DNA from: a virus
Strand: one strand, 5' to 3'
Virus record (IMG/VR): IMGVR_UViG_3300035136_000079
Span: 1 to 42,277 of that record
Length of the DNA: 42,277 bases
Positions 3,248 through 14,099 of the stretch are shown one piece after another. A program made the position numbers and the translations under genes. The notes beneath the pieces were generated by a model that made no database searches, was not told where the DNA came from, and saw only the letters and a list, made by a program, of their open reading frames with translations. Every line of letters starts with the position of its first letter. The stretch's first letter is position 1.

Positions 3248-3600
3248 TTTGCCTCTCCTGTTTTGGCATCGTAATGTTCTATTTTGCCGTTTTGAATTGC
3301 GTCAATCAGATCCATCTGTTCGACATTGTTGACAAACGGTGTTCCGTCCTGCGTCATTATGACGTGTTCTGTTCCCGGTTTATCAGGTACAAGTTTTGAT
3401 TTTGCCTGATACAGTATTCCGATTTTCGATCGGTCCTCGGACGGTATCATGGTCACCTCCAGCGTTACTTTTCTGGATTTTTTAACGTCCTTGTTCAAAT
3501 CCAGACAGTCCTGGAAGGCCTTTCCCAGTTCAAAATTGAACTTGTCCTTGGCATCTCCGTTGCCGATTGTGTCGATTGTGCATTTTTGATAATTGTTCAT
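3244..3600 (-). CDS. Conserved small phage protein, function unknown
   Basis: A 118-residue protein. The chosen ATG at 3600 has GAGG upstream; the longer in-frame extension runs into the pentamer array and is rejected. The core (KKSRKVTLEVTMIPSEDRSK, then YQAKSKLVPDKPGTEHV) resembles a small family that accompanies phage replication genes. The pattern is of beta strands with no catalytic motif. It is the first gene after the long non-coding pentamer array, so that array is its 5' leader if the unit is transcribed through. Confidence 0.6.
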   Translation of the reverse strand: MNNYQKCTIDTIGNGDAKDKFNFELGKAFQDCLDLNKDVKKSRKVTLEVTMIPSEDRSKIGILYQAKSKLVPDKPGTEHVIMTQDGTPFVNNVEQMDLIDAIQNGKIEHYDAKTGEAK

Positions 3601-3639
3601 CGTTTCCTCGTTTCCTTTTTTTAAAAAAAATATTACGCT

Positions 3640-4067
3640 TCTGTTCAACTCCATTCCATTTCGGTTCTGCTCAGAGGTAATCAGCTCGAATCCACTCCAT
3701 TGCACTGCACGTCAATTCCTTTTCGTATTACCTCATTTCCATTCTAATCCATCTCCTGTCGTCTCTGGTCTTTGCAATTCTGTCTCGACTCATGACTACT
3801 CTGGTCTTTGCAATTTCATTTCAAATCATTTGTCCGCCATTCAATTCCATTGCACTGCACGTCAATTCCGTCTCGGATCTCTGCTTGTCAACTCTTTTCC
3901 GATTCAGCTCAAATCATGTCAGTTCATTTCAATTTCACGTCATCTCAACTCATATCCGAATCGCCTCGGGTCTCTTTTTATCAACTCTTTTCCGCCTCTT
4001 GTCCTTGCGACTCAACTCAAATTCTATTCAATTCATCTGCATTCATTTCTGGTCCGTCACTGTTCCG
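3640..4067 (-). repeat. Degenerate GANNN pentamer array, non-coding
   Basis: On the minus strand this stretch reads as a chain of about 80 units (by eye), nearly all starting G and mostly GA, at a step of five bases with occasional six: for example GAATT, GAATA, GAGTT, GAGTC, GCAAG, GACAA. It contains longer internal repeats: a 24-base repeat at 3696-3719 and 3846-3869, and a 17-base one near 3763 and 3799. The plus strand is pyrimidine-rich and poor in stops in all three frames. The minus strand has stops throughout. It fills a gap in an otherwise packed operon. Function is unknown. Confidence 0.75.
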
Positions 4068-4691
4068 TCACTGTTCCAGAATCTCAAACGTGAACGTCCC
4101 CTTGCCGGAGTTGCGCCACTGGTGCAGGCCGCGCAGAGTTCCGTATTCCAGCCATTCAATCAGACAATCCTGCAATGATGGCTTGCCGCTTTTTACCGGC
4201 GGCTCAAGGATGAGTACGCCGAATTCAAATGTTGTTCCGGGAGGCACCGTTTCAGAGTTTGCCAGGGCAATTCTGGATCCCTGCGGAGTGTCCGCACGCA
4301 GAGAGCGCTGGCAGTTTCCCGTCTTTGCGCCATCAGGCAGAGTCATCAGAATTTTTCTTGGATATGGAAACATCATTCCGTCGATCACCTTGCGATAGCT
4401 GGTAATCTGAGACGAGTTTGACCCGGATACTCTTCGCAGCATTCCACAGGCGTCCTTGAACATTCCCTTGATTTGATAATCCCACACAAACGGGATTCCG
4501 TTCTCCTTCGGGAAAACGGTCTGTTTCTCCTCAACCACCGCATCAACGCCGAGGGCCTCCACCTCCTCGGATATTTTCGCCGCATCCGGAGCCCGGGATG
4601 CAATGTATTTTTCATGCACATCCGGCGAAGCGGCCATCCCAAGCATTTCCTCGGTGAGTGTGATTCTGATTTTGATTTCACTTTTTTTCAT
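4068..4691 (-). CDS. Conserved phage protein with RAMP/Cas7-like C-terminus
   Basis: A 207-residue protein starting at ATG 4691 with GGGAAAAGAG upstream. The N-terminal half has WDYQIKGMFKDACGMLRR. The second half has strands around ETVPPGTTFEFGVLIL and a closing LRGLHQWRNSGKGTFTFEIL. This order (E-x-vP-x-GT-xFeF strand, long helix, glycine-rich loop, final strand) resembles the end of RAMP-superfamily (Cas7-like) domains. I know similar stand-alone proteins from other phages but no proven function. No other Cas genes are present. A nucleic-acid-binding role near replication is inference. Confidence 0.5.
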   Translation of the reverse strand: MKKSEIKIRITLTEEMLGMAASPDVHEKYIASRAPDAAKISEEVEALGVDAVVEEKQTVFPKENGIPFVWDYQIKGMFKDACGMLRRVSGSNSSQITSYRKVIDGMMFPYPRKILMTLPDGAKTGNCQRSLRADTPQGSRIALANSETVPPGTTFEFGVLILEPPVKSGKPSLQDCLIEWLEYGTLRGLHQWRNSGKGTFTFEILEQ

Positions 4692-13426: not shown

Positions 13427-13607
13427 AATTTGGTCCTCTCGTTGTGGCAGTCTCATCAGCGCCGGTTGCCACGCGGCGGACGGGCCACAGCCCGTTTCGG
13501 CTTTATCTCTCGACTACATTGTATCGTCGAGAATCAGTCTGGCTCTCGTCCGACAGATAAATCAGAGCGGCGGACGGGCGGAGCCCGTTTCGACAGTTAT
13601 TACGGCA
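13427..13607 (-). promoter_or_regulatory. Intergenic leader with several hairpins
   Basis: Four inverted repeats lie in 150 bases: GTGGCA/TGCCAC (13444-13449 with 13467-13472), CGGGC/GCCCG (13481-13494), TCTCGAC/GTCGAGA (13508-13532) and ACGGGC/GCCCGT (13574-13588). The second and fourth are parts of a repeated 26-27-base unit (13473-13499 and 13567-13592, GCGGCGGACGGGC core). It lies before the gene at 13426, so it is probably a structured 5' RNA. No T run follows the stems, so it is not a simple terminator. Confidence 0.55.
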
Positions 13608-14099
13608 TCATAAATACTCTCGCAATTTTGCAATCTGCCACGCCCGCGCCGCAGCCCTCTCCGCATCCCACGTCGCAGCAGTCGCCGCAGCCCATTCCGC
13701 AGCCCATTCCGCAGCCAGCGTCGCAGCCTCCGCCGCCGCCCACGCCGCATTCCACGCAGCATCCCGGTGCGCAGCCGCATATTTTTGCAATTCATCAATT
13801 CCGATGACGCCATTTGCGCAATCTCGTGTCCGGGATTGCAACGCATTAGATTTTGTTTTGACACAATCGTCATCCATTGAGTCAATCAATCGCTGTGCGC
13901 AGTCGACGGCAAACAGGCGATTAGACCTGTCATCCAAAAAACGAGTGATTGCCCAGATGCGATCCGCGACTGGTATGTCCAGCTCACTGATTTGCATGAG
14001 GGTCAATGACTCGTTTCCATCCCACAGCTCAGTCACGCGTTTAGCAGAGTATTCCGCCCCTGGTTTTTTTGATATTATCATTTCGATTGTAATTTTCAT
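13608..14099 (-). CDS. First early gene, protein with Ala/Trp-rich repeat tail, 163 residues
   Basis: Starts at ATG 14099 with AAAAAAGGACCAAAAA upstream, the first gene of the leftward unit. Residues 1-110 are a folded-looking domain (MKITIEMIISKKPGAEYSAK). Residues about 112-155 are an irregular Ala/Trp/Glu repeat (AAWNAAWAAAEAATLAAEWA) of the kind seen in several phage early proteins of unknown role. The repeat is GC-rich and slippage-prone at the DNA level. Being first in the unit it may be a host-takeover protein; that is inference. Confidence 0.6.
   Translation of the reverse strand: MKITIEMIISKKPGAEYSAKRVTELWDGNESLTLMQISELDIPVADRIWAITRFLDDRSNRLFAVDCAQRLIDSMDDDCVKTKSNALQSRTRDCANGVIGIDELQKYAAAHRDAAWNAAWAAAEAATLAAEWAAEWAAATAATWDAERAAARAWQIAKLREYL

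Follow-up and report, generated by a model that had tools for sequence, protein, structure and literature searches.

What is the function of a long run of degenerate five-base units set between two closely packed phage genes? The question is raised by a viral genome fragment (IMG/VR record IMGVR_UViG_3300035136_000079, positions 1 to 42,277; this whole stretch is hereafter called the window), in which the original prediction, made from the letters alone, recognised a non-coding array of about 80 GANNN pentamers on the minus strand, proposed that a ring or filament protein reads it as RNA or single-stranded DNA, named TRAP binding sites as a known parallel and an origin, a packaging site or a decoy RNA as further options, and held that no established feature type explains it. 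We find that the array (positions 3639 to 4067, minus strand) most likely represents a long guide array, built of the divergent unit G-A-N-N-N and of the type found in VIPR, a phage-borne, CRISPR-related system that consists of the RAMP protein Vipr and an RNA, the vrRNA, according to the main text of its description (PMC13142463; bioRxiv 2026.04.26.720920). To this reading, in which the array is the template of a putative guide RNA for a VIPR-type system, we assign a probability of roughly 0.77.

A phase-locked array with a non-integer period

The array stands out by autocorrelation, Fourier analysis and segmentation. On the minus strand from 4067 to 3639, the match at lag 5 is 0.486, whereas 1000 dinucleotide shuffles gave 0.287 ± 0.022 and never more than 0.356 (z 9.2), and a scan of the whole 42-kb window found no comparable lag-5 or period signal elsewhere. 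Segmentation divides the array into 82 G-led units, in keeping with the number predicted, of which 68 are five and 14 are six nucleotides long. The step is not exactly five, as had been supposed: the array is phase-locked at 5.17 nt (Fourier peaks of 36.7 for G, 35.7 for T and 30.9 for A), with a summed power of 27.9 at 5.167 and background values of 1.0 at 5.00 and 0.9 at 5.25. A 6-nt unit recurs roughly every six units, with an evenness that none of 100000 random placements matched. Within the unit, G-A-N-N-N, the first two positions are constrained (entropies of 0.55 bits for G and 0.70 bits for A) and the remaining three are nearly free. The sequence does show the two copies of a 24-base repeat, near 3696 and 3846, from which growth by duplication had been deduced, and their spacing of 150 nt equals 29 lattice steps. 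Repeats of another kind, 12/36 nt long (GCGGCG/GCTGCG on the minus strand), lie at 13642-13749, apparently within a coding sequence, as an Ala-rich repeat.

The array begins at the stop codon of the gene at 4068-4691 and ends about 40 nt ahead of the start codon at 3600. A coding sequence was rejected as an explanation: the sense frames are closed, with longest open stretches of 23-30 codons, and there is no 3-nt signal. The non-coding character claimed for the tract holds for the sense strand; the antisense strand, however, is largely open, because the units seldom create stops there. The Rfam search gave no match at the array, the array RNA of the window was no more structured than shuffled sequence (across 60 arrays of class 1, defined below, the mean z is -1.6), and a search for close DNA relatives of the region gave a single 70% match that covers 10% of the query and lies within the RAMP gene.

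The upstream gene encodes a predicted Cas7-like RAMP protein

The gene that precedes the array on the transcribed strand, P0002 (4068 to 4691, minus strand), encodes a 207-amino-acid Cas7/Csm3-like RAMP and putative Vipr-like protein, as judged by structural model, Foldseek, VIA and profiles. No Pfam family matched it above threshold. Its AlphaFold model (pLDDT 86) has the Csm3/Cas7 fold, with a Foldseek E value of 7e-9 to type VII Cas7 and a VIA-align Z score of 15.2 over 162 residues to Csm3 (9g9j_D), and the nearest viral model carries the name 'Cas system-associated RAMP superfamily protein'. A profile built from seven P0002-family sequences matched type VII Cas7 and Csm4 in the PDB, a profile of 108 sequences matched type VII Cas7 with an E value of 6.8e-5, and, at permissive thresholds, the Cas7_IIId model of PADLOC and the Csm4 model of NCBIfam matched 44 and 29 of the 108 family members, respectively. 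Comparison of the class-1 protein with a merged Vipr profile by hhalign gave a probability of 77.6% (E 1.9e-5, 127 columns). On the strength of its model, P0002 is a small stand-alone phage RAMP with a predicted Cas7-like fold. With such a gene adjoining the array, the idea of a protein that forms a polymer along RNA and recognises one fixed purine in every five bases is well supported, since the known members of the RAMP (Cas7/Csm3-fold) family form filaments on RNA.

The downstream neighbour, P0001 (3244 to 3600, minus strand; 118 amino acids), is similar to phrog_997, 'replication terminator' (E 7.8e-18), and returned no relatives when used as a query.

Array and RAMP gene form a strand-locked pair

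We fetched relatives of P0002 from phages, IMG/VR and GTDB genomes, and refer to these genes and their arrays as class 1. On each side, 700 bp or more of flank was available for 102 non-redundant genes; an array lies within 1.3 kb of the gene in 97 of them, either before or after it, in a collection that was picked via conserved motifs and is thereby biased to close homologues, and whose IMG/VR contigs may be fragmentary. In all 116 arrays the G-rich strand is the one that encodes the gene, and a background control found arrays in none of 34 distant stretches of 3.2 kb. P0001 was not among the families recognised as common to the relatives' neighbourhoods.

The association was also recovered from the side of the array. 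A search of IMG/VR viral contigs for G alone at a step of 31/6 gave 120 listed matches, 78 loci among which were clear arrays with a period of 5.05-5.27; among these matches listed, the fetched stretches held a class-1 gene at 52 of the 78 loci, on the same strand in all, and a gene of the Vipr family, a second RAMP family, at 20 of the 34 strong ~5-nt array loci that have no class-1 gene. Three loci (L164, L187 and L265) carry GTNNN-like arrays with a period of 5.12-5.14 and no RAMP gene recognised in the fetched stretch, and possibly belong to a further protein family. A divergent class-1 gene (37% identity) on a Lokiarchaeota MAG contig (L144), with no array within the fetched 12.6 kb, may reflect a different use of the class-1 protein or a binning error.

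The genes around class-1 cassettes are phage early genes (repressor, integrase, SSB, recombination and replication, as named from their sequences), and no conserved partner or accessory (vap) gene was recognised beside class-1 arrays in the relatives' neighbourhoods. Because the surrounding genes include no constant partner, gene and array behave as a two-part cassette.

Class-1 arrays share a lattice with regular six-nucleotide units

The mean period of 55 strong class-1 arrays is 5.157 ± 0.005 nt (pooled value 5.156 nt), and class-1 arrays have no power at 3, 10.31, 31 or 36 nt, the last two values leading us to reject a fixed 31-nt tandem duplication. When the phase is predicted from neighbouring bases, on-lattice positions carry G in 88%, within an interval about one base wide. 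The unit runs G, then C or A, then A, then two free bases, with pooled entropies along it of 0.47, 1.57, 1.78, 1.94 and 1.95 bits. Across class 1, 6-nt units recur at intervals of 5-7 units (CV2 0.087 versus 0.83; a memoryless simulation gives a geometric distribution) and carry the motif GCAAnGG, an enrichment to part of which the segmentation itself may contribute. These units may represent either 'rounding to a ruler' or a 'motif-defined register unit'. At the ends of class-1 arrays, pseudoknot tails did not significantly exceed chance (12% versus 5.7% in shuffles).

Sister classes have other periods, and one ends in an RNA pseudoknot

A pattern with a period of 4.83, intended as a negative control, failed as such and uncovered a class with a period of 4.90. 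The arrays of this class 2 are built of GGCNN units with a mean period of 4.896 nt (n = 91 among the matches listed; loci L270-L387) and contain a 4-nt unit, GCAG, about every 10 units; they adjoin a Vipr-family gene of ~220 codons, on the same strand in 72 cases to 1 among the matches listed. The model of the class-2 protein (pLDDT 94) has the Csm3/Cas7 fold, and its family is phrog_4652 (function unknown there), which is represented in 129 phage records, among them those of Felix O1-type phages and of Pseudomonas LESphi2. Profile comparison establishes its homology to the Vipr protein at the sequence level: the class-2 profile matched PDB entry 36pp, 'SUSP1 Vipr protein', with an E value of 1.5e-17, and 36pp and the SUSP1 gene that adjoins the Felix-type tracts show no difference over 195 aligned residues. 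A gene of phrog_15946 adjoins class-2 arrays and is a probable accessory gene of this class. A related set, class 3, has arrays of 5.0-5.2 nt. Two contigs (L054 and L072) carry a class-1 array and gene together with a period-4.92 array and the class-2 accessory gene, so that a single phage may harbour two systems of this kind.

The tracts of Felix-type phages and LESphi2 are short and consist mostly of exact 5-mers, with structured elements between them. The 3' element of Felix-type tracts is an H-type pseudoknot with two-sided changes at 9 of 11 pairs, a covariation that was reached by 0 of 500 shuffles and lost when the partners were slid. Because the tracts end in this covarying pseudoknot, the Felix-type array acts as RNA. 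Unannotated pentamer-tract RNAs were seen in LESphi2 (L388, 5475-5946 of the record) and at four further loci (L389, L394, L395 and L396) of LESphi2 or Felix O1-type phages, among which the pentamer tracts and the 5' and 3' elements vary in number and order, as if modules were exchanged. Protein fold, pentamers and pseudoknot are points on which our sequence analysis agrees with the main text of the VIPR preprint (PMC13142463).

A VIPR-type guide RNA as the probable function

As the preprint's main text describes them, vrRNAs are about 100 nt long, with 9-16 YNNGG repeats and a tail that is a pseudoknot in the SUSP1 clade; their NN dinucleotides recognise double-stranded DNA with a 1-nt skip and repress transcription, and the natural targets are satellites and prophages, so that rival phages are silenced (PMC13142463). 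The same text distinguishes seven VIPR types with 'GGY/NN motifs, or a related consensus', reports staggered overlapping arrays and hammerhead-interspersed arrays, and demonstrates transcribed RNA co-purifying with Vipr for SUSP1 and P. fulva only (PMC13142463). With the publication of these guide RNAs in April 2026, the statement that no established feature type explains the array was overtaken.

If the window array is a guide array of this kind, the operon, array included, would be transcribed leftward, and the Cas7-like protein encoded at 4068-4691 would polymerise on the transcript with one subunit per ~5-nt unit, gripping the conserved 5' part (G-A in the window, G-C/A-A in most of class 1), with the two hypervariable bases that close each unit left free. 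Following a gapped code, as for SUSP1, the free dinucleotides would then recognise double-stranded DNA and silence competing phages or prophages. The 6-nt register unit every ~6 units may mark staggered, overlapping guide RNAs or, alternatively, the point at which RNA and protein lattice return to step. For class 1, we infer transcription, binding, DNA targeting, the targets and the ratio of one subunit per unit from what is established for the sister class.

The dinucleotides of class-2 arrays, compared with 7.3 Mb on both strands, gave 54 matches at a 1-nt skip versus 19 at a skip of 0 and 28 at a skip of 2, the 3-nt-skip row being swamped by arrays matching themselves; this excess appears weakly positive and is in line with the rule given in the preprint's main text (PMC13142463). 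Class-1 dinucleotides gave 11 matches at a 1-nt skip versus 2-9 in shuffles, and no skip rule stood out against the same 7.3 Mb, which were not chosen to match the hosts of this class. It is conceivable, at odds well below even, that the window represents a distinct VIPR-like lineage, defined by G-A/C-A units, a period of 5.156 and a 6-nt motif every ~31 nt, which would yield many overlapping guides from its long tract, use a decoding rule other than the 1-nt skip and be set apart from the preprint's main-text description. In that case, the lineage periods of 5.156, 4.90 and 5.0-5.2 would be a direct read-out of the filament geometry of each protein.

The linkage of protein and array would be equally expected if the transcript were an RNA scaffold or decoy, coated by the Cas7-like protein into a filament that sequesters, for example, host Cas proteins and guides nothing. 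The RNA anti-CRISPR RacrIF1, which supports a long Cas7f filament (PMC10651486), the Cas7-like filaments that type IV-B Csf forms on heterogeneous RNA (PMC7937560) and the lack of a clear skip-code signal in class 1 all fit this account, which we nevertheless consider unlikely: a scaffold has no need of two near-random positions (1.94 and 1.95 bits in the pooled class-1 arrays), and the sister class is a guide system shown experimentally, according to the main text of PMC13142463. Much less probable still is an origin, a centromere or a packaging site at the DNA level, in which a filament protein would bind units phased to every half turn of the helix (2 x 5.16 = 10.3 bp). The non-integer period does lie near half a DNA turn and is phase-coherent across hundreds of bases, but the sister periods differ (4.90, and exact 5-mers in Felix tracts), the two tables under which the helix comes out normal predict a half-turn of 5.25-5.28, the correlation of array period with predicted twist is weak and inconsistent across tables, and there is no power at 10.31. 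Since sister classes have other periods, 10.3-bp power is absent and twist does not track period, helical phasing was rejected as the main explanation; the RAMP fold, the strict strand-lock of the array to its gene in about 100 relatives and the covarying RNA pseudoknot caps in Felix-type relatives likewise speak against a DNA element, and the last two leave the origin, packaging site and decoy of the original prediction unsupported. That slippage and duplication produced a functionless satellite repeat, an account for which the visible 24-base duplication could be cited, is scarcely credible given one period in more than 90 arrays of differing sequence, the regular 6-nt units (0 of 100000 placements) and the fixed partner gene, for which slippage alone is insufficient.

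The array is an unannotated feature of gut-bacterial phages, tied on our reading to a newly described RNA-guided system that is proposed to be older than CRISPR, and its non-integer, protein-class-specific period and register units form a quantitative signature that finds arrays by sequence alone. If class 1 works like VIPR, hundreds of Clostridia-phage loci would be readable records of silenced rivals, and the register would offer a testable handle on how the RAMP filament measures its guide.

Comparison with known systems

TRAP has an unrelated fold and forms a ring of 11 subunits, which binds about 11 (G/U)AG repeats. Its sites resemble the window array in having purine-led triplets every ~5 nt that are read by an oligomer, whereas unit and length differ; no TRAP gene was seen in the window, and the parallel drawn to TRAP was the wrong one.

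Type III Csm3 and type VII Cas7 share with P0002 the predicted fold (Z 15.2 and E 7e-9, respectively), a G-rich C-terminal motif and membership of a family that forms RNA filaments. Cas7 backbones have a 6-nt register (PMC5965380), with contiguous spacers and CRISPR repeats, whereas the class-1 sequence has a period of 5.156 nt, the former being a physical register and the latter a sequence period. The array consists of degenerate pentamers, no alternation of CRISPR repeats and spacers was found at the locus, and no other cas genes were recognised near it. Type IV-B Csf resembles the proposed system in forming a Cas7-like filament without a classical crRNA, and differs from the window in being entwined with a Cas11 small-subunit filament and in having no dedicated repeat RNA (PMC7937560).

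VIPR, as presented in the main text of its description (PMC13142463), has the unit GGY-NN, compared with G-A-N-N-N in the window and G-(C/A)-A-N-N in class 1, a difference for which the preprint's 'related consensus' may leave room. Its 9-16 repeats with a structured tail stand against a single 82-unit tract with 6-nt register units, and its vap gene against a window in which no accessory gene was recognised. A type II hammerhead ribozyme at 13442-13502 on the minus strand (38.9 bits; Rfam gathering threshold 37) lies ~9 kb from the array, and no pentamer array was found near it in the window. Common to VIPR and the window are a single small, phage-borne RAMP with a Cas7-like fold, predicted in our case, and intergenic tandem pentamers on the gene's strand, each of which combines a conserved portion led by G with two bases that vary; class 1, like VIPR, is mostly viral or proviral.
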